Source: a virus
Reading direction: 5' to 3' (one strand)
Virus record (IMG/VR): IMGVR_UViG_3300027244_000018
Coordinates: 1 to 24,839 of that record
DNA: 24,839 nucleotides
This document shows positions 4,097-24,839 of this stretch, piece by piece (position 1 is the stretch's first letter; each line of letters opens with the position of its first letter). The position numbers and the translations under genes were made by a program. A model generated the notes under the pieces. The model saw only the letters and a list, made by a program, of their open reading frames with translations, had not been told where the DNA came from and searched no databases.

Positions 4097-4921
4097 TACA
4101 ATGCGTTTTGGATTATCATCAGATGTTCTGTCAAAATCCTTTGGATCCGTAGATGTTGGTTGTGTATGAATTTGGAACATTCTATTACCAGCATGCATCT
4201 CTGTGTCCCATTCAAACGAAGGAACGAATGAATTAATCTCAAGTGAGAACGTAACTTTATACCCCTCTTTTGAATCAAATGAAAATTCCATTGGGCGCTC
4301 TGTTGTATAATCTTCAGGCATTGCATAATATGAAGGCAATCTATATGAACCTTCATTCAAGTCACCAACTTCAACGTTGTATTGATTTGATTTATAAAGA
4401 CGCTTAATAATGCGCTCAGTAATTTTGAAATTATCTAATTGCGATGATGTGATAATTTCAACATCAACATTAATATTAATTGGAATCATTTCAAATTCAG
4501 CAGTATAACCCTGCATTGAACCGTTATCATCCATTTTTGTATATGCACCTCTAATACGTTTATTGACTAGTTTACCAGAATCAACAGACATGCCAGTAAA
4601 ATTAACAACGCCACGTGGAACCCTATCATAATTACCATCAGCTTTTACTGAATCCGGTTCACATCTCAAACCATCCTTAGTTAAGAACAAGAAGTTATCC
4701 TTTAAGAAATCTTCATCTCCAGCAATAGCATAATAGAATGGCACATCAACCTCAACCCTACCCGGTTGTTGAACAACGGTACCGTCTGGTTGGATTTCAG
4801 TTCCACCATTACCAAGTTGGCGGTAGAAATAAACTTTGTTATTTAAGTCGGCTAAAAGACCGATAATAATCTGTCTAACGACACTATCGTCTTTGTTCCA
4901 TTTTACGTTATAAGTTGCCAT
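4091..4921 (-). CDS. gp15: Tail sheath stabilizer and completion protein (gp15-like)
   Basis: A 276-residue protein whose layout follows T4 gp15 (272 residues), which caps the tail tube and sheath and joins the tail to the head. Matching blocks in order are: an N-terminal helix plus partner strand, RQIIIGLLADLNNKVYFYRQ; a segment with EVDVPFYYAIAGDEDFLKDN (T4 has RVPITYASKEHFMMK); PRGVVNFTGMSVDSGKLVNK (T4 LPRINLHLVDFSYN); FEMIPININVDVEIITSSQL followed by the ITERIIKRLY helix (T4 IYELSIFTRYEDD and QIVEQILPYF); and YKVTFSLEINSFVPSFEWD near the C-terminus (T4 LTFEVNGWMYPP). The alignment is by eye and identity is low. It sits directly after gp46, away from other tail genes, with a candidate late box in front. 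Structural role likely; exact orthology fairly likely. Confidence 0.68.
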   Translation of the reverse strand: MATYNVKWNKDDSVVRQIIIGLLADLNNKVYFYRQLGNGGTEIQPDGTVVQQPGRVEVDVPFYYAIAGDEDFLKDNFLFLTKDGLRCEPDSVKADGNYDRVPRGVVNFTGMSVDSGKLVNKRIRGAYTKMDDNGSMQGYTAEFEMIPININVDVEIITSSQLDNFKITERIIKRLYKSNQYNVEVGDLNEGSYRLPSYYAMPEDYTTERPMEFSFDSKEGYKVTFSLEINSFVPSFEWDTEMHAGNRMFQIHTQPTSTDPKDFDRTSDDNPKRIVE

Positions 4922-11900: not shown

Positions 11901-13118
11901 TTAAAAAAGCGCGGTGGAGTAAATAAGGTTCCTATCAATGTTGTGTAGACCAACAGCAGTTAACACCCTATTCATTGGATCGATAATACATTTTTCAAAT
12001 TGTGTCTCATAGTCAACTGGTGGTGCAATCTCATATGGATGATCACCTGGAAGATACGCAAACATATCTGATAAGTTATTTGGATCAATTGAATGATAAA
12101 TCTTTAGCTTTTCGCCATTGCCAATCATTCTGTATTTTGATTTATACTTCGTGTTATTATTGAGTAAGAAGTTATAATAACCCGCCGCTTTAACGTTTGG
12201 TGGACATTTCAATCCAAACTGGAATTCAATGTGGTCGTCAACAATGTATTTCTCAAGGTTGTTTGTACGACGGTTAAATGAAATATCATCCAGCTTAGCT
12301 AACTTAAACTCTTTCTTTGCATTCTTCAAAAACTTAACTAGTTTTTCTAATGTTTCAGCAGTTGGACCAGTTGGCTCCGTAAAGATAATCTTGAGTGCCT
12401 CGGCCAATTTCTTACGAGCAAATGTTGGGGTTGACGACTGGATAGTGTCAAATCCGATGGTCTTTACTCGGCTTAGAGGTTTGTGTCGCTGTGTCTTTGG
12501 AAGCTTATCATCCCATGCAATGTCTTGAATGTATTTCTTTTTAGACATCCAGATACCACCGTATGCAACTGTTTCAAGTTCAAATACAAGGAAGTTATCG
12601 GTGTTATTAGAATCTGCATATTTTTGCATTGCTTTTGTAATGTAATCATTCAAACGGGATTCATACAATGCTAAAATAAATGTATCAATAGATGGTGCAT
12701 TTTCTGGATCTTTCCAAACAATAGTATTGTACAATTCATCAAACTGTACATAACAAGAATCTGTATCAATATAGATTACCGCGGGTTGGTGGCATTGTCC
12801 CTTAATTGATTGCACACCGAGTTGTTCATGGATTTGACGGTCTTTATGCCAGAAATCTTGAACATATTTGTTCAAGATTTGCTCTGAATATAAAATAGCG
12901 TTCTGACTTTGGAGGGTAATAGATTCGGCAATATCAATGTTAAAGAAGTGAAACCACTTATTACCAAATGCACCATAGATTGAGTTGAGGGTTACCTTTA
13001 CGGCTTGCTCATAAGCAGTGTACTTGGCAGACATTGTTTCATAATGTTCCGCCAAGCGCTGCAGATCTTCTTTACTTAGTGAATCAATTGGAGCTTCTTG
13101 TAATTGCTCTATTGTCAT
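11901..13118 (-). CDS. gp43B: DNA polymerase gp43, C-terminal fragment (fingers, palm motifs B and C, thumb)
   Basis: A 405-residue stand-alone C-terminal part of family B DNA polymerase. It opens with about 35 helical residues corresponding to the second fingers helix, then motif B KVTLNSIYGAFGN (residues 41-53) and motif C YIDTDS (116-121, catalytic Asp pair region). KKKY in GGIWMSKKKYIQDI is the conserved KKxY element, and the rest is thumb, ending ALF, a possible clamp-binding tail. Motif A and the exonuclease are absent; they lie in gp43A (16963-18366), 3.8 kb upstream in transcription order. ATG at 13118 overlaps the sliding-clamp stop (TAATG), so it is translated right after its partner gp45. 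Both parts together (872 residues) equal a T4-size enzyme (898), so they presumably assemble into one polymerase. Confidence 0.93.
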   Translation of the reverse strand: MTIEQLQEAPIDSLSKEDLQRLAEHYETMSAKYTAYEQAVKVTLNSIYGAFGNKWFHFFNIDIAESITLQSQNAILYSEQILNKYVQDFWHKDRQIHEQLGVQSIKGQCHQPAVIYIDTDSCYVQFDELYNTIVWKDPENAPSIDTFILALYESRLNDYITKAMQKYADSNNTDNFLVFELETVAYGGIWMSKKKYIQDIAWDDKLPKTQRHKPLSRVKTIGFDTIQSSTPTFARKKLAEALKIIFTEPTGPTAETLEKLVKFLKNAKKEFKLAKLDDISFNRRTNNLEKYIVDDHIEFQFGLKCPPNVKAAGYYNFLLNNNTKYKSKYRMIGNGEKLKIYHSIDPNNLSDMFAYLPGDHPYEIAPPVDYETQFEKCIIDPMNRVLTAVGLHNIDRNLIYSTALF

Positions 13119-13867
13119 TATTCAGCTGTTTGACAGGTTGCAATTGTGAGGAAGGTGTTAGAGTCATTTGACTTCATAACAACTTTATTGCCTGAAACAT
13201 AAACACAGTATTCTTCGCGATCAAGTAGGTTCAAGTACTTCTTGTAAAGAGTTGCCTCTGAAGCAGAACCGTTAAAGCTTTGATTCGCCTGGTAATTATA
13301 AGTCTTACCTTTTACGCGGACTTCACTGTTAGATGCAGTGATTGAGAATGTTTCTTCTTTGTCAAGAGAGAATAGTGATTTGATTTTGCCAAGTGTATAT
13401 GTGTCAAGTACAAAATCAAAGTCTGAACCTTCACGGTCAAAGATAGTTTGCAACTGTGCGTCAGTTAGGTCTTTGAAACCAAGTGATGGGTCTGAACACG
13501 CCAATGTGATTTCGAGTTCATTATTGAATAGACGCATTGAAGAGCACACAAAGTCTTCTTCATTTTCTTGGAATTCCATAACGGCTTGTACCTGGTCTGC
13601 ATTAAACATTTTCAATGCATCAAGAACTTTGTTTGCATCAAAGAACGCAACTTTCAATTCTTTACCTTCTGGGAGTGCCTGAGAAATAGAGAAGATGTCT
13701 TTAATCTCTACTGTGTGCAATTTGACAGCATCACGTTGTGGTAGATAAACTGCAGAGGTAACTGCACCCGTGCGAAGTTTGAAATACAAAAACGTGTCAA
13801 TAGCTTTTAGGCGGTTGATAAAATCAACAAAGCTATTTTGGTCAATGCGATTAATTTCTAATTTCAT
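13118..13867 (-). CDS. gp45: Sliding clamp (gp45)
   Basis: A 249-residue PCNA/gp45-type clamp that tethers DNA polymerase to DNA and also serves late transcription through gp55/gp33. The two-domain pattern is visible: an N-terminal strand-helix unit (SFVDFINRLKAIDTFLYFKL), connecting region near 85-110 (FFDANKVLDALKMFNADQ), then the second repeat (DFDFVLDTYTLGKIKSLFSL) and C-terminal beta strands (EEYCVYVSGNKVVMKSNDSN). T4 gp45 is 228 residues. Sequence identity to T4 is low, but the position (directly before a polymerase piece) and fold pattern support the call. The ATG at 13867 is preceded by a candidate promoter and a terminator, so gp45-gp43B begin a new transcription unit. Confidence 0.88.
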   Translation of the reverse strand: MKLEINRIDQNSFVDFINRLKAIDTFLYFKLRTGAVTSAVYLPQRDAVKLHTVEIKDIFSISQALPEGKELKVAFFDANKVLDALKMFNADQVQAVMEFQENEEDFVCSSMRLFNNELEITLACSDPSLGFKDLTDAQLQTIFDREGSDFDFVLDTYTLGKIKSLFSLDKEETFSITASNSEVRVKGKTYNYQANQSFNGSASEATLYKKYLNLLDREEYCVYVSGNKVVMKSNDSNTFLTIATCQTAE

Positions 13868-13918: not shown

Positions 13919-13954
13919 AAAAAAAGCGAAGCCGGGAAGTAGCGAACCCCCGGC
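13919..13954 (-). terminator. Rho-independent terminator after nrdA
   Basis: GCCGGG (13931-13936) pairs with CCCGGC (13949-13954) around a 12-base loop; on the minus strand the stem is followed by TTCGC and a run of seven T (13925-13919). It would end nrdB-nrdA transcripts before gp45. Its loop contains GTAGCGAA on the plus strand, a piece of the same conserved 23S rRNA segment as the neighbouring element. Confidence 0.8.
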
Positions 13955-13983
13955 CTCTTCCGTTAACTATAACGGTCCTAAGG
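13937..13983. other. 23S rRNA helix 69-like / antisense element in nrdA-gp45 gap
   Basis: On the plus strand 13964-13983 reads TAACTATAACGGTCCTAAGG, identical to the universally conserved 23S rRNA stretch that forms the loop and 3' side of helix 69 plus its flank (the core of the I-CeuI site). In rRNA the next bases are TAGCGAA; here GTAGCGAA instead lies upstream at 13939-13946, inside the terminator loop, so the two halves appear in swapped order. 13960-13975 (CCGTTAACTATAACGG) can fold into a 6-bp stem with loop ACTA, like helix 69. All local genes are read from the minus strand, so the expected RNA would be complementary to rRNA rather than a mimic. No reading frame covers it. Match seen directly; function unknown. 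Confidence 0.75.
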
Positions 13984-14005
13984 GTGGCCATCACAGCCAC
14001 ACCCT
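13981..14005 (-). other. Hairpin directly after the nrdA stop
   Basis: AGGGTG (13981-13986) pairs with CACCCT (14000-14005), with further G-C pairing inside (GGC/GCC) and a loop around CATCACA. It lies two bases beyond the nrdA stop and is the first of three consecutive hairpins in 13919-14005. It lacks a T-tract, so it is more likely an mRNA 3'-end stabiliser or part of a structured RNA than a terminator itself. Confidence 0.55.
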
Positions 14006-14007
14006 CT

Positions 14008-15813
14008 TTATCCGTCGCAGCTTAAGCAATCTGGATCTGTTGCTCTCGTTGCAATATCACCTCTCAGTACAGATTCTGTTCGCATATAGTAAAGTGTTTT
14101 TACACCTTGCTTGTACGCTTCCAAGTGTACTTGGTTGATGAATTTCGGAGTTGCTTCTGTTGGGAATGCCAAATTCAATGAAACTGACTGGTCAATGTAT
14201 TGTTGTCTAATACCAGCTTGACGAACAAGTTCCATTTGATTTAGTTCCTTGAATGTTAAAAATACATTCTTGATTGGCGTCCACTCATCCTTTTGAATGT
14301 CTGTTAGTTTAGCCCATTCTTTAGCATCAATATAAACACCCTTAGTTGAATACTTACCGTACCATTTATCAAGTGCTTCTATATCCTGGACTGAACCACC
14401 GTCAATAAGGATTTGATCCCAAATTTCTTTTGTATTAATACCTGCATGCGTCAAGAAATCTTCAAGAGTTGGATTCTTACGGATGAAAGTACCTTTAGCT
14501 GTTTGCTCAGTGAATACGTTAGCAGCCCATGGTTCAATACCCGGTGAAACGTTACCAGATAGTTTTGAGTTTGATACCGTTGGTGCAATAGCACGTAGGT
14601 GTGTATTTCTCATACCTGTCCCAACACACCAAAGTGGTTCACCAAATTCAGTGGCCATGTCTCTCGAGGCGCGTTCTGATTCAACTTTGATTTGTGAGAA
14701 AATCTTGCGAGTTTCAAACTGAGCACCCATTGAATCAAATGGAATATTACGTTCTTGTAAGTATGTATGCCATCCTAAAACACCAAGACCAAGCGCTCTA
14801 CCTTTTTCAGCTGAGCGGACAGAGTTCTCAAACCCACGCATATATTTTGCACGAGTGATGAATTCTTCTAGCACACCGTCTAGGAACCAAGTTGCAGTAT
14901 AAACAAGATCGGTATCTTTCCACTCGTCATACTTTGCAAGGTTGATTGAAGACAAGCAACAAACAAATGAGTGATTCTCATCAGTGTGAAGTGTAATCTC
15001 AGAACAAATATTAGTCATGTAAACTTTAAGACCATTGTTCTTGTATGCATCCGGATTTGCGCGGTTGATATTACCCTTGAACATAATGTATGGTTCGCCA
15101 GTCGCTCTACGCTTACGAAGAACCGCAGCCCAACGCTTACGTGCTTCTTTATCACCAGCTTCAAGCTTTTGCATAAAACCATCTGATACAACAATTGATT
15201 GGTGCATATTCAAGGATTGGCGGTTCACATCACCCTTAGGTTCACGAATCTCAAGCCATTCCCAGAAGTCACCGTGTTCAATATCAATATTAACAGCTGC
15301 TGCACCTCTACGTACAGAACCCTGGTTTGTTGCAAGGATTGATGAATCGTAGATTTTGATAAATGGTACAACACCGTCTGATGTACCATTCTGTGTAATC
15401 TTAGAACCCGCTGGTCTAATTTGATTTACACCAATACCCACACCACCGCCGTGTTTAGCAAGTAGCATCATCTCAAGATTCTTTGTACCAATCTCATGGA
15501 TTGAATCACCAACGTCAATACCAAAACAAGAAATAGGTAAACCACGTTCAGTACCTGTATTTGAGAATACTGGAGTTGCAAGATTTAACCAACCTCTCCA
15601 AATATAATCATAAAACTTGCTAGCTAATTCTGGTCTACCAAGTCTTTTGGCTACTGTTGTTGCGACGCGCCAATAAGCGTCTTTTGGTGTTTCATCTTTA
15701 AGTAAATATCCTTTAGATACTGTCTTAACGTAGATTTCGGTATTACCCCAAATAGGGAAATCAACACCTAGTTCCCAGCCAAGCTCAGCACCGTAATTAT
15801 GTATATCTGTCAT
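14008..15813 (-). CDS. nrdA: Ribonucleotide reductase large subunit NrdA (class I, no ATP cone)
   Basis: A 601-residue alpha subunit that reduces ribonucleoside diphosphates to deoxy forms. Visible active-site elements: C96 (GLPISCFG), the N-x-C-x-E loop with N268, C270, E272 (MTNICSEITL), the partner cysteine in SFVCCLSSINLA (C285/C286), the paired radical-transfer tyrosines in LYYMRT near the end, and the C-terminal redox pair C596/C599 (DCLSC). It starts directly at the catalytic domain, without the roughly 90-residue N-terminal ATP-cone of T4 NrdA (754 residues), so dATP feedback through that domain should be absent, as in other marine phage NrdAs. ATG at 15813 lies 10 bases after the nrdB stop; an in-frame GTG at 15864 inside nrdB is rejected. 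No intron or inserted endonuclease. Confidence 0.96.
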   Translation of the reverse strand: MTDIHNYGAELGWELGVDFPIWGNTEIYVKTVSKGYLLKDETPKDAYWRVATTVAKRLGRPELASKFYDYIWRGWLNLATPVFSNTGTERGLPISCFGIDVGDSIHEIGTKNLEMMLLAKHGGGVGIGVNQIRPAGSKITQNGTSDGVVPFIKIYDSSILATNQGSVRRGAAAVNIDIEHGDFWEWLEIREPKGDVNRQSLNMHQSIVVSDGFMQKLEAGDKEARKRWAAVLRKRRATGEPYIMFKGNINRANPDAYKNNGLKVYMTNICSEITLHTDENHSFVCCLSSINLAKYDEWKDTDLVYTATWFLDGVLEEFITRAKYMRGFENSVRSAEKGRALGLGVLGWHTYLQERNIPFDSMGAQFETRKIFSQIKVESERASRDMATEFGEPLWCVGTGMRNTHLRAIAPTVSNSKLSGNVSPGIEPWAANVFTEQTAKGTFIRKNPTLEDFLTHAGINTKEIWDQILIDGGSVQDIEALDKWYGKYSTKGVYIDAKEWAKLTDIQKDEWTPIKNVFLTFKELNQMELVRQAGIRQQYIDQSVSLNLAFPTEATPKFINQVHLEAYKQGVKTLYYMRTESVLRGDIATRATDPDCLSCDG

Positions 15814-15823
15814 AGTCTTTATA

Positions 15824-16828
15824 TTAATCGAACAAATCGTCTTCGTCCCAGTTTTCGCCTTCACCAGCTTTAGAGTAGTCGGTTGGTCTTACCGCAAAGA
15901 AGTCAGTGTGTGTATGACCTCCAGTCAAATGGTAGAACCAATCAAGCGCTGCAGCTTGGTCTTCATTATAGTCAAAAACAGGATCAATGTTTAGCTCTGC
16001 AAGCTTTTCATTTGCTCTTTTTTTAATAAAATGTTTTAGGTCGTCCGCCTTCATATTTTCAAGATCGCCTAGCTCGAACATTTTATCAATATAGTTCATT
16101 TCCATTTCAACCATAAGCTTTGCAGCTTCAACCACTTCGTGCTTTACCTCACCTAAAAGTTCAGGATATTCTTCACACATATGGCGGAAAAGTTGGCAAC
16201 CCATCTTTGAGTGTAGTGATTCGTCACGTACAGACCACTTCATTTGCTGACCAATGCCCTTAAGCATATTGCGCATTTGAAATGAATAAAGTACAGCAAA
16301 CGATGAATACAATGCAACGCCTTCAGCAAATGCTGAAAAGATAGCTAATGAACGTGCGACCTGTCTACGTGCTCTTGCACTTGTTTGAAGATCTTCCCAT
16401 GTCCAATCAGCTTCTGTATTCATCAAGAATTCAAATCTTGCAGCAGTTGATGGTTCATGTAAGAATGCTTTAAAATCTTCAAGTCCTAACGTTTCATTTA
16501 AGTATGAATAAGCAGTTGCGTGAATTGTTTCTTGTGAACCAAACATCATTGCCATTTGCTTAATCTCGTGTTTAGGAAACCATTTAGTTACCATACCAGT
16601 CCAATAATCAGATACCGCACATTCAGTCTGTGCAAAACCCAATAGGATATTACCCACAAGATTCTTTTCTTCTTTTGTCAATGCCTCATTCCAATCTTTG
16701 ACATCACCCTGCATTGAAATCTCAGTGTGTAGCCAAAATGCTTGTGCTTGCTTCAACCAACCTTCATTATAATAAACCGGATATTCAAACGGTTTATATT
16801 CTATTCTTTCTTCAAATAATTTTGACAT
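15824..16828 (-). CDS. nrdB: Ribonucleotide reductase small subunit NrdB
   Basis: A 334-residue beta subunit that stores the radical for NrdA. Metal ligands can be placed: E100 and H103 (SQETIHATAY), the Glu of FAEGVALYSSF, and E/H in VRDESLHSKM. The radical tyrosine equivalent of E. coli Y122 is Y107 (E+7). The first ligand, Asp84 in E. coli, falls at E69 (FAQTECAVSDYW) by spacing of 31 residues to E100, so a Glu replaces the common Asp. The C-terminus is acidic with a Phe (DEDDLFD), the usual NrdA-binding tail. ATG at 16828 is preferred to a TTG two codons earlier. The gene follows a terminator and begins the nrdB-nrdA unit. Confidence 0.95.
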   Translation of the reverse strand: MSKLFEERIEYKPFEYPVYYNEGWLKQAQAFWLHTEISMQGDVKDWNEALTKEEKNLVGNILLGFAQTECAVSDYWTGMVTKWFPKHEIKQMAMMFGSQETIHATAYSYLNETLGLEDFKAFLHEPSTAARFEFLMNTEADWTWEDLQTSARARRQVARSLAIFSAFAEGVALYSSFAVLYSFQMRNMLKGIGQQMKWSVRDESLHSKMGCQLFRHMCEEYPELLGEVKHEVVEAAKLMVEMEMNYIDKMFELGDLENMKADDLKHFIKKRANEKLAELNIDPVFDYNEDQAAALDWFYHLTGGHTHTDFFAVRPTDYSKAGEGENWDEDDLFD

Positions 16829-16962: not shown

Positions 16963-18366
16963 CTATAATTTAGCTAATCTATCTTTTACCTCTTTTGCCT
17001 TTGTATAATACTCATAAGAAGTCTTCTTATAATCTTTACGCTGGCCATAAAGGTCACTTAAGATTTGCTTAAGAATAGAATCCTTTTTATCATATACAAC
17101 GCCATTACTGCATACAATTTCATCCTTATTCTTTTTGCGTTCTGGAATCTGTGAAATTGGAATAATTTCTTTATATGAATCAGGCGAAATATTAAATTGT
17201 CGCATGATTGATGGGTATAGAGACGCAAAGTCAAATGCAGATACACCTTGATAGAAACCAACCTTTGGTTGCTTTACATATGCACCAGCAAACTTACCGT
17301 CTTTTTCACCACCTTCTTTACCTTCAGAAGCAACACGCCTGTTTTGTTCCGCGAGTTTACGGGCGATGAGTGCTTCAGTCACTGATACCGGAGACGCTGC
17401 TTTATATAGTGGCATCTTGGTAATCGAAGCTAGTGTAAGAAGTACTTCCATTGATTTTAGCTTCTGGTCAATATAGTAAACCAGAATAGAGTCAACTACG
17501 TTATAGTAGATGTACTTAACAAAATCTTGCTCATAAAGGTCTTGTAGCGACCCCTGGAACTTAATCTTATTTAGATTAAGAACCTGACCCGATACATAAT
17601 CAAGTGAGTTTGATTCCTTAACTTTAACAGAACGGTCGTACTTATCATACAACTGCATATAGTCGAGAATACCCATATGAAGTGGTCGACTGTCTGTTCT
17701 GTCAAGCTCTTTTGTTTTGGCCGCTTGGGTAATATCAATCTGAAGGCGCTTGCATCGATTTACAATGTACTGCCAGTCATAGTTGATAAAGTTCCAACCC
17801 GTCATCATTGGAAACTTAGTCATGAAACGATTGATGAATGTAAACACCATATCGTATTCTGTTTCAAACTTGCGGTAATCAAATGTCCAATCCTGATCCA
17901 ATGATTTAAAATATTCATTGGTATCGTTCTGGATTTTCTGCATCTTCTCCTGCGGCATATCTTCTAGACCAAGAACGATTGCCTTACGGTCTGGTGTAAT
18001 GATAGAGAATGACAGGATGCGCGTCTTAGCTTCTTCTGGCTTTGGGAAACCATCAATAATCTCAGTCTCAATATCGACAAAGTACGTCTTTGGCATTGTT
18101 GGCTCAAAGATAATATCTTTATCGGTTTGAGGTAAATTGTCAAGAAATGAAATAAGTGAAAACTTATTGTATTGACGGGCGTTACCTTCTTTGATTGGGC
18201 GACCGTCCCAATTACGTAGGGTTTCGTGTTTGTATCTATCGTTCTCTTCTGTGATGTACCAGTTTTTGTATTGTTCAACCGGATAACGGCGGAACTTAAC
18301 CTGGCCCTCTGTGTCGTAATAGGAAACAATAATTTCTTTTTGTCTTTGCTCTACGTCTAATAGCAT
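16963..18366 (-). CDS. gp43A: DNA polymerase gp43, N-terminal fragment (exonuclease, motif A)
   Basis: A 467-residue N-terminal part of family B DNA polymerase. The proofreading exonuclease is intact: Exo I D98-x-E100 (YFVDIETE), Exo II N193...D197 (GWNFINYDWQ), Exo III Y288-x3-D292 (YYNVVDSI). Polymerase motif A follows at D379 (DFASLYPSIMRQFNISPDS). The protein continues into the first fingers helix (GQRKDYKK, 441-448) and stops at TAG after DRLAKL. Motifs B and C are absent and are encoded by gp43B (11901-13118), so the break falls at the tip of the fingers. ATG at 18366 overlaps the gp56 stop (TAATG). Downstream are a terminator and nrdB, not the second half, so this is a real split rather than a single frameshift. 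Confidence 0.94.
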   Translation of the reverse strand: MLLDVEQRQKEIIVSYYDTEGQVKFRRYPVEQYKNWYITEENDRYKHETLRNWDGRPIKEGNARQYNKFSLISFLDNLPQTDKDIIFEPTMPKTYFVDIETEIIDGFPKPEEAKTRILSFSIITPDRKAIVLGLEDMPQEKMQKIQNDTNEYFKSLDQDWTFDYRKFETEYDMVFTFINRFMTKFPMMTGWNFINYDWQYIVNRCKRLQIDITQAAKTKELDRTDSRPLHMGILDYMQLYDKYDRSVKVKESNSLDYVSGQVLNLNKIKFQGSLQDLYEQDFVKYIYYNVVDSILVYYIDQKLKSMEVLLTLASITKMPLYKAASPVSVTEALIARKLAEQNRRVASEGKEGGEKDGKFAGAYVKQPKVGFYQGVSAFDFASLYPSIMRQFNISPDSYKEIIPISQIPERKKNKDEIVCSNGVVYDKKDSILKQILSDLYGQRKDYKKTSYEYYTKAKEVKDRLAKL

Positions 18367-22088: not shown

Positions 22089-24839
22089 TTACCAGGCGTA
22101 ATCTAGATTAGAAATCTTAGATACTCTGTCTTTAACATCCTTGGCGTATACCGCAGCTTCTTTCTTATAATAAGAACCTGATTCTGGTTCTTTTTTTAAT
22201 TTATTTACATATTCAACATATCTTGAATATGAATCTAGGATATTTGCCATATGGTTTGATGCATCTCTCAGTTTAACTTCCTGACCCTTTGGAGAAGTAC
22301 CGATTAAAAGATCGCCGTATCTACCCATTTCCATTTTCTTAGTAGCTGTCTTGATTTGATCTGCAAGTTCATTAACTGCATTTTCAACCATACCATCAAT
22401 ATCATCATTCATGGCTCTAGTCTGAAGGATTTCTCTATATCTCTTAGTGTTTTCAGCTTTAAAATCTTTGTCAGACATAAATGCAGTTGCACCTGCTTTT
22501 GCAGCATTTCTTTCACGTCTCATATCTAATGTAGACGGTAGAATATCTGGGTTGAACATCAACACTCTATCAGCCACTTCAGCAATTCTCTTTACATTGT
22601 AAAGACCAGATGCCTCGTAACCAGAATATCTTTTATCAACGCCGATAGTATCACTAGCACTATTCGTAGATGACATATTAATATCTTGACCATTCTTAGA
22701 CCAATATCTTGAATAAGTTATACCTAAGAAATCATTTGAACCCGTTGCAACTGCAAGAAGTGTATTACCAGAAAGTTGTCTAACATATTTAGACGTGGCA
22801 TATGGATTATCCTTTGGATTGTCTAGGATATAGAAGTAGATACCTTTCACCTTACTTTTATATGCTTCCATTGGATGAAGCTCGACAATTTGATCATCCG
22901 TAATCTGATCAAGCTTTACTTTTGTATAATTGTAAAGCGCCTTCATTGTTCTAGAATTAAAACCAGAAAGATTAAGCAGTGATGCTAATTTAGAAGACTG
23001 GAATGCCTCTGTAACAAGACCTTCATTAAATGCATATCCATCAACCTCTAGTCTATCCCATTCGCTTTTTGGCATAATACCAACGCCATCTTTAGTGTGG
23101 AGTGCATTAGTTTTAAGCATGATTTCCATCATCTTTTCCGCTGACTTCATTGAAGTGTGTTCGCTATAGAAGTGCATTTTCATTGTGCCTTCTTTCCAGT
23201 AGCATACGTAAGTTTCTTTTGCCTCATTAATAAATGATTCAAATGATTCGTAAATAAATCTCATTGGTTTGTTTTCAATTTGTTTAGTTTCATTAACAGA
23301 TGCTTGTGGCTTTGCTGGTAATTGGGCTAGTGCTCTTTTACCAAACTTTGAAAGTGCAACACCATCTTCAGAAACATTAAAATACTGTGCATTTGCTTTC
23401 ATCCATCTTTTACCATCCGCTGAGAATTCAGAAAGAAGGGCGTCAAACTGTTCTTGTGTTAGTCTACCATCTGCAATAGCATCTAGCATTTTGTTTCTAA
23501 CAATTGCTGTCTTACCAGCTGTTTTTGCTGGATAATTTTCTGTGTATTTTCTCTTAAGAGTAATGTGGCGTTCGTTGAGTTCATCGTAAGATTCAACGAC
23601 TGATTCAATTGGGTTAAATGATTCACCAACTAATTCAGCATCAGCATCCTTAAGACCAACTGCATCGTTTAATTCAGCTTCCAGCTTTTTCTTTTGAGCA
23701 GTTAAATCTTTTAATTTAGCAAGTAAATCTTCTTTATCTTTACCTTCAGCTGCCTTCCACATATCTACTGTATCCTTCATATCGGCTGTTATTTTACCCC
23801 AATCCTTTTGAATTTTATTAATTGAACGAGCTTCATTCATATCTTCAGTTTGATATTCATTGTAAACCTGCTTGAATTCCTTAAGATTACTAACCGGTTC
23901 ATCGTACAATTCAACTGTTTCGTCTTCAACGTTAATGCGAATAGCTGAATCTTGATATTTAATATCTAAAATTAGTGTACCGTAGTCCTTTCCAATAGCT
24001 GTACCACCACTGATTCTCTTGCCTACCTTTTCAACCCAACCAGCTACAGTATTAACTAGAGAAGTAATACCTTTTCTTTTAGCAAAGTCTTTAATATTTG
24101 AAGGAACATATCCTTCGTTTACTGATTCGTTAGTTGGCTTCATTGGGTCAAATTGTTTGATGGTATTGTGTTTAGCATTTGTTGGAAAGTCCATTGCAGT
24201 TACGATGGTATCAGCCAATTTAGCCATCTCTCTTGCACCAGTTCTTGTGAATTCTAAATCAGTATCAGCTGCCTTAAACCAAACCCAAACTTTACCCTCT
24301 CTGATTGAGAATTGAACAATCCCTGGAATTTTATGGCCTTTGTAACCTGCAAATTTTACAGGCGCTGACCAACCACCCCAATTATCTGGAAGTTGGAACT
24401 CAACATTCATATTGAAATGAGCTTCATCCGAACCAAATACTTTAGTATCGTCATACATGAGTGAACCCTCGCCAGTAAATGTCATTAGCACTTGGTTGAT
24501 ATAACTCATAGAACTACCTCTATAAAGGGCTTTGGTTACATCGTTCATTGAACCTTTAACCTCAAATGATTTGCCGGCAAGTTCTTTAGCAATTTCTTTA
24601 CCAAATGACTGAAGTGCTTTCATTGCAAGAGAGTTACCCCTTGAATCACCTCTCTGAAGAGCGGCTTTAACAGTGTTCTTATACGTATCCCCAGATAGTT
24701 CATTGATTACATCTTCGTTTACCGATTCTCTCATTAGATCTCTAACCTCATCGTTGAATTGACCATCATTAGATTTGTGGATAACATATGTTTCTTTATC
24801 CTTATCAAGGACCTGCTTCATTTTCTTAGCAGATTCCAA
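22089..24839 (-). CDS. Giant multi-domain internal-protein-like polyprotein, N-terminus outside window
   Basis: At least 916 residues; the frame runs off the window edge, so the true start is not visible. Modules are separated by short motifs ending in Asn-Glu: SVNE (39-42), VINE (44-47), SVNE (239-242), DMNE (333-336), DELNE (419-423), SVNE (514-517), FINE (536-539), AFNE (603-606), all fitting the gp21 cleavage rule loosely. Residues 526-540 (MRFIYESFESFINEA) repeat the leader of the downstream protein and start with Met, as if a separate gene had been fused in frame. The segment 243-330 is alpha/beta (GTAIGKDYGTLILDIKYQDS), 340-400 is a coiled coil, and 607-916 is a long helical domain with FLGITYSRYWSKNG. 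No enzymatic motif recognised. It looks like a head-packaged polyprotein cut during maturation; this is inference. Confidence 0.75.
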   Translation of the reverse strand: MESAKKMKQVLDKDKETYVIHKSNDGQFNDEVRDLMRESVNEDVINELSGDTYKNTVKAALQRGDSRGNSLAMKALQSFGKEIAKELAGKSFEVKGSMNDVTKALYRGSSMSYINQVLMTFTGEGSLMYDDTKVFGSDEAHFNMNVEFQLPDNWGGWSAPVKFAGYKGHKIPGIVQFSIREGKVWVWFKAADTDLEFTRTGAREMAKLADTIVTAMDFPTNAKHNTIKQFDPMKPTNESVNEGYVPSNIKDFAKRKGITSLVNTVAGWVEKVGKRISGGTAIGKDYGTLILDIKYQDSAIRINVEDETVELYDEPVSNLKEFKQVYNEYQTEDMNEARSINKIQKDWGKITADMKDTVDMWKAAEGKDKEDLLAKLKDLTAQKKKLEAELNDAVGLKDADAELVGESFNPIESVVESYDELNERHITLKRKYTENYPAKTAGKTAIVRNKMLDAIADGRLTQEQFDALLSEFSADGKRWMKANAQYFNVSEDGVALSKFGKRALAQLPAKPQASVNETKQIENKPMRFIYESFESFINEAKETYVCYWKEGTMKMHFYSEHTSMKSAEKMMEIMLKTNALHTKDGVGIMPKSEWDRLEVDGYAFNEGLVTEAFQSSKLASLLNLSGFNSRTMKALYNYTKVKLDQITDDQIVELHPMEAYKSKVKGIYFYILDNPKDNPYATSKYVRQLSGNTLLAVATGSNDFLGITYSRYWSKNGQDINMSSTNSASDTIGVDKRYSGYEASGLYNVKRIAEVADRVLMFNPDILPSTLDMRRERNAAKAGATAFMSDKDFKAENTKRYREILQTRAMNDDIDGMVENAVNELADQIKTATKKMEMGRYGDLLIGTSPKGQEVKLRDASNHMANILDSYSRYVEYVNKLKKEPESGSYYKKEAAVYAKDVKDRVSKISNLDYAW

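Follow-up and report, generated by a model that had tools for sequence, protein, structure and literature searches.

A phage RNA family with two conserved words antisense to the helix 69 region of 23S rRNA

The element behind nrdA

The window analyzed here is a stretch of 24,839 nucleotides (positions 1 to 24,839 of IMG/VR virus record IMGVR_UViG_3300027244_000018). It contains a family A DNA polymerase that is split into two minus-strand ORFs, 11901-13118 and 16963-18366 (N-half and C-half); in G008 (L561), the family A polymerase is intact. Between the two halves lie nrdB, nrdA, the element described below, and an ORF of 249 aa, and the same order was found in the relatives that were checked. 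The 249-aa ORF after the element (13118-13867, minus strand) has no match in PHROGs or Pfam, yet it is conserved in relatives. An ORF of 916 aa that reaches the window end (22089-24839, minus strand) has no PHROGs match.

The nrdA gene encodes the large subunit of a class Ia ribonucleotide reductase (14008-15864, minus strand; phrog_84, E 2e-160), and its 3'UTR bears the element. The plus strand at 13964-13983, TAACTATAACGGTCCTAAGG, is identical to E. coli 23S rRNA positions 1911-1930. This exact match of 20 bases, on which the original prediction was built, was confirmed and did not occur in any of 100 shuffles. The rRNA bases that come next, TAGCGAA, had been described as displaced into the loop of the nrdA terminator, and they are indeed found there, at plus-strand positions 13940-13946.

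Read as minus-strand RNA, the sequence 3' of the nrdA stop codon (14008-14010) forms a series of three hairpins, namely P1, P2, and the P3 terminator (-40 kcal/mol; z = -3.7 versus shuffles). P1 (13981-14004, minus strand) lies just 3' of the stop codon, and its stem is kept with changes in alignment A1. Word 1, UUAGGACCG (13973-13981, minus strand), is antisense to 23S positions 1920-1928 and is invariant or nearly so in the loci found through protein homology; its UUAGGA is unpaired and sits between P1 and P2. P2 (13960-13975, minus strand) is a covarying helix, CCGUUA-UAGU-UAACGG, whose loop in the window is antisense to the loop of helix 69 (H69; 23S 1912-1916). P3 (13928-13957, minus strand) is the stem of the nrdA intrinsic terminator in the window lineage. 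Its loop holds word 2, UUCGCUAC (13939-13946, minus strand), which is antisense to 23S 1930-1937 and kept in nearly all protein-homology loci. The sequence of the terminator includes a tract of seven U residues (13919-13925, minus strand).

An identical element is present in two further metagenome assemblies (L001 and L002), so the copy in the window is not an assembly chimera, an artifact that the original prediction had allowed for. The sole other exact copy of the 20-mer in IMG/VR belongs to a genuine 23S gene (L003). In its full length, the 20-mer is limited to the window lineage, because the P2 stem of this lineage (CCGTTA/TAACGG) happens to be the same as the rRNA sequence. Relatives conserve instead a word of 9 bases, TTAGGACCG, together with the displaced word of the P3 loop, TTCGCTAC, and, in the nrdA lineage, the P2 loop TAGTT.

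Conservation and fold

Relatives were fetched by protein homology and not by motif. Among the nrdA homologues, many lineages have the same three-hairpin element directly 3' of nrdA, while others have a plain terminator or another gene there; half-decayed elements were not seen among these loci. In an alignment of 41 rows, the stems vary, and the columns that never change are TTAGG, CCG, TCGCTAC, and, within the TAGTT loop, the G. Next to P2, relatives keep the word UUAGG(A/G)(C/U)C, and in their P3 loop they keep UCGCUAC(U/C), and the stems change with compensation. Loss of the element or free drift of its rRNA-matching bases had been named as outcomes that would speak against the prediction; the relatives gave the opposite outcome, with the element kept, the words fixed, and the stems drifting. 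In L102 and L104, the nrdA is merely 39-40% identical to that of the window and of a different type, and the element occupies the same place. In L007, L009, and L090, the nrdA is 84% identical and a plain terminator is found where the element would be. The L007/L009 lineage is close to the window and shares its gene order, and the 170 kb record of L009 has no copy of the element; we count this absence against the explanation that we favor below.

Further loci were collected independently of the motif through homology to the 249-aa ORF, a second type of nrdA, a protein of 493 aa, and two unrelated upstream proteins (185 aa and 229 aa). A loose search of the protein-homology loci, allowing up to 3 and up to 2 mismatches in the words, had a two-peaked outcome: either the words were perfect or 1-2 bases off and accompanied by good stems, or the hits were chance matches in coding DNA. 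Inside UUAGG and UCGCUAC, this search added just two variants (T to C in L437 and A to C in L394). In 94 representatives that differ pairwise by more than 6 bases, every position of UUAGG and UCGCUAC carries 2.0 bits, a value that arises by construction, as the pattern behind the representatives fixes TTAGG and TCGCTAC, and for which the loose search is the test; the arms of P3 are near or below 1.1 bits.

The helices were compared with shuffled sequences. P2 has 95.6% of its cells paired versus 77.6% in shuffles, and the P3 stems of the representatives measure 8.0 bp versus 4.1. RNAalifold, applied to the whole class 1 alignment, recovered P2 alone, because P1 and P3 differ in length; P3 was then analyzed by anchoring the sequences on its loop. 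Aligned in this way, 53 distinct elements have 86% of P3 positions paired versus 47%, with a covariation score of 0.97 versus 0.23; double changes occur at 7 of 7 P3 pairs (alignment A2), and slid controls fail. In the minus-strand reading, the helices contain 28 G-U against 5 A-C combinations, a count that comes from related sequences and is not a probability. This excess indicates that the RNA is the minus strand of the window, and the element follows the stop codons of genes on that same strand. The suggestion that the plus strand might be transcribed as an rRNA mimic was therefore rejected.

At least two RNA architectures, class 1 and class 2, were recognized, and the two words are all that they have in common. 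Class 1 elements, that of the window included, have the stem and following U-tract of an intrinsic terminator; class 2 elements have no U-tract. The loop of an intrinsic terminator would be expected to vary freely, but here the UCGCUAC loop word is kept in nearly all protein-homology loci while the stems vary. In class 2, a hairpin loop pairs with the 3' tail in a covarying pseudoknot, with GCU/AGC as the usual loop/tail pairs and GGU/ACC and GCC/GGC found once each. A class 2 word, GGCUGCUGG (for example in L149, about 4402-4514), comes close to an antisense of the 530 loop in 16S rRNA (517-528). We rejected the class 2 loop GGCUGCU as a 530 loop antisense and judged it to be structural, since it pairs with the 3' tail and is variable at its middle base. 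The elements are about 75-110 nt long.

Number and genomic position

A pattern scan of IMG/VR together with the nrdA loci yielded at least 119 distinct elements, and among the distinct elements listed, 106 start shortly after a stop codon that ends an ORF on their own strand. At most loci, the element begins 5-38 nt 3' of the stop codon. More than 30 unrelated groups are represented among the upstream proteins; the few that can be named are nrdA, ferritin-like, and SNase-like, and most belong to no known family. Exactly one copy was found in 22 of 24 and in 24 of 30 large records (one record is common to both sets) and in G020, and never two; in other words, all 46 large virus records that hold the element, up to 524 kb in size, hold it once. 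In G033 and G046, the usual neighbor lacks the element and the sole copy lies elsewhere, that is, it has relocated. Copies in L190, L213, and L133 are free-standing, with no co-directional gene directly upstream, and in L171, L187, and L535 the element follows a terminator. In these last three, a tRNA-like 3' end precedes that terminator, and ARAGORN calls no tRNA there.

The element is thus a covarying, conserved, minus-strand RNA with two fixed unpaired words, single in each genome and able to change place. The single copy, the changing neighbors, and the free-standing copies argue for a trans-acting RNA gene, and they give the element the independence expected of a trans-acting base-pairing small RNA. 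The original placement in the nrdA 3'UTR holds for the window; elsewhere, the same single-copy RNA follows many unrelated genes or stands alone.

A stricter pattern had no match in 257 Gb of bacterial and archaeal genomes, and a looser one had 33 matches there, none of them with stems; together with the absence of the 20-mer from the shuffles, this speaks against a chance origin, which we rejected. The element does not reach the gathering threshold of any Rfam 15 family, the only match being the 23S gene of L003, and a permissive search of Rfam 15 gave only chance-level matches. A pattern search of 11 cultured phages, including immuto, MaF61, phi14:2, T4, and phiKZ, found no copy, and HTVC008M had one chance match to the pattern without stems. 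BLAST of the element against INPHARED returned only 23S contamination and chance matches, and tblastn searches with three upstream proteins led to no copy in cultured phages. The nearest cultured nrdA relatives are in phages of Flavobacterium and Cellulophaga. That these loci form a phage RNA family is well supported, and the window element looks like one copy of this undescribed family.

The match to 23S rRNA and its interpretation

The antisense words of the elements concentrate at 23S positions 1912-1937, which for the pattern-found loci is partly so by construction. Taken together, the two words are the antisense of the contiguous segment 1921-1936, and 23S is invariant at the target segment. 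By our own estimate, the chance that both words match E. coli rRNA within 2 nt of each other is about 5e-5. In 216 of 218 elements, word 2 is followed by U or C, either of which can pair with G1929. Where the core letters vary, with A/G opposite U1923 and C/U opposite G1921, G1922, and G1929, a G-U or Watson-Crick pair is always retained; the chance that all four preserve pairs is about 0.07 by position, a weak bias. This pairing-preserving variation lends weak support to pairing with 23S and does not prove it. The two variants from the loose search would break pairs, opposite A1928 in L437 and opposite U1931 in L394, as would a G to A change opposite C1920, which is repaired inside P2. When duplex energies were calculated over tiled rRNA for 16 elements, ignoring folding, the 23S site ranked first in most but not all. 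The order of the two words is permuted relative to 23S, which counts against pairing and means that both words would have to bind as a clamp. Both words recur even between classes that have no P1, P2, or tail in common, which is best explained by a fixed outside partner. From complementarity, 23S rRNA is probably that partner.

A different reading, which we consider unlikely though worth weighing, accepts a trans-acting RNA and takes the words to be part of a tertiary fold or a binding site for a phage or host protein, the 23S match being coincidental. Loops that do not vary typically mark RNA-protein or tertiary contacts, class 2 does have a pseudoknot, and the permitted variation favors 23S pairing only weakly. 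Against it, two independent words lie exactly side by side in the most conserved 23S stretch, they are kept across architectures that have no other feature in common, and the nrdA lineage adds UAGUU, the complement of the H69 loop.

The position of most loci just behind a stop codon, and the use of class 1 P3 as a terminator with a U-tract, would also suit a cis element of the upstream mRNA, either a terminator and 3' stabilizer or a tether for termination-reinitiation that pairs with the 23S of post-termination subunits. Such an element would hardly be expected once per genome of up to 524 kb, behind unrelated genes, in free-standing and moved copies, and, in class 2, lacking the U-tract; we regard this reading as quite improbable. 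Still more doubtful is a guide or decoy, in which the RNA would lead a nuclease or modification enzyme to 23S or shield the site from a toxin of host defense. The antisense words with their fixed target, and the single accessory copy that is present or absent between close relatives, would fit this role, but no nuclease gene is linked to the element, its neighbors differ everywhere, and the order of its words presumably does not fit box H/ACA guides.

A feature of the DNA itself (a LAGLIDADG site of the I-CeuI type, a decoy for such a nuclease, a scrap of rRNA captured for recombination, or a chimera) can be set aside almost entirely: the 20 bases of the I-CeuI core occur in the window lineage only, most members have other P2 stems and a contiguous match of about 9-11 bp with the remainder displaced and permuted, the stems are kept by compensation and covary as RNA with G-U over A-C, as would not be expected of a scrap, and identical copies exist in separate assemblies. 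A homing site of the I-CeuI type should keep about 20 contiguous bp or more in relatives, and we rejected it for this reason.

The reading that we prefer, and think somewhat better than even, is that the element is a phage-encoded, trans-acting, small structured RNA that would pair with host 23S rRNA and slow ribosome production or subunit joining. Minus-strand hairpins displaying the complement of the host ribosome were among the original proposals, and this is the one that the relatives best support. The broader statement, that a widespread phage RNA family binds the subunit-interface core of host 23S through a two-part antisense clamp and works on the ribosome or its precursor, seems to us evenly balanced.

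Under the preferred reading, the RNA would either form the 3' end of an mRNA, nrdBA in the window, or be transcribed from a gene of its own, and it would display two short single-stranded words: next to P2, UUAGGACC, and in the loop of P3, UCGCUACY. These may pair with about 16-17 contiguous nucleotides of host 23S (about 1920-1937; H69 and its 3' flank), and in the nrdA lineage the P2 loop UAGUU could additionally touch the H69 loop. The pairing would keep this segment open, either in precursors of the 50S subunit or in free 50S subunits, so that H69/H71 folding and bridge B2a would be blocked and host ribosome production or subunit joining slowed during infection. The target segment is partly buried in mature 50S subunits and 70S ribosomes, and for this reason our guess is that the RNA acts on precursors or free subunits; a lytic phage needs ribosomes, and blocking mature ones would be odd. 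An effect on assembly or subunit joining is likewise a guess.

Relation to known systems and significance

No natural RNA, whether from a virus or from a cell, is known to us to target the 23S H69 core by complementarity, and our literature search found no earlier description of such an RNA or of the element. Fremin and colleagues reportedly surveyed candidate structured RNAs in viruses and phages in about 2023, and the element may be listed there without a label. In having short, invariant, unpaired seeds on hairpins and, in class 1, a U-tract terminator, the element resembles the trans-acting base-pairing small RNAs of bacteria and phages, above all those derived from 3'UTRs, which are likewise located at mRNA 3' ends or encoded by their own genes; the phage RNA is a predicted one. 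It differs from them in that its apparent target is the rRNA core and not an mRNA, and in that two seeds address one contiguous site.

Peptide nucleic acids against H69 (Kulik et al. 2017, as cited in PMC7038079) are antisense to the same 23S helix and are reported there to inhibit the growth of E. coli, which implies that pairing at this site can hurt the ribosome. Unlike these synthetic, unstructured molecules, the phage RNA is structured and also covers the 3' flank to position 1937. GOLLD and other large phage-associated non-coding RNAs (PMC12286853) are similarly structured and come from phages and metagenomes; they are, however, hundreds of bases long and form oligomers, in contrast to an element of about 75-110 nt with rRNA-complementary words. 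The sites of I-CeuI and of group I introns (23S about 1917-1931) lie in the same 23S stretch, but the RNA of the element is the opposite strand, permuted and interrupted, with no intron and no nuclease gene.

Should its partner be another molecule, the element would still represent a phage RNA family that is compact, widespread, present in single copy, and missing from Rfam 15. Real pairing with 23S would mean that phages employ RNA to influence ribosomes or ribosome assembly. Nearly all bacteria share this target, so the RNA would be workable in ordinary laboratory strains, and it may become a tool for H69 and late 50S assembly.
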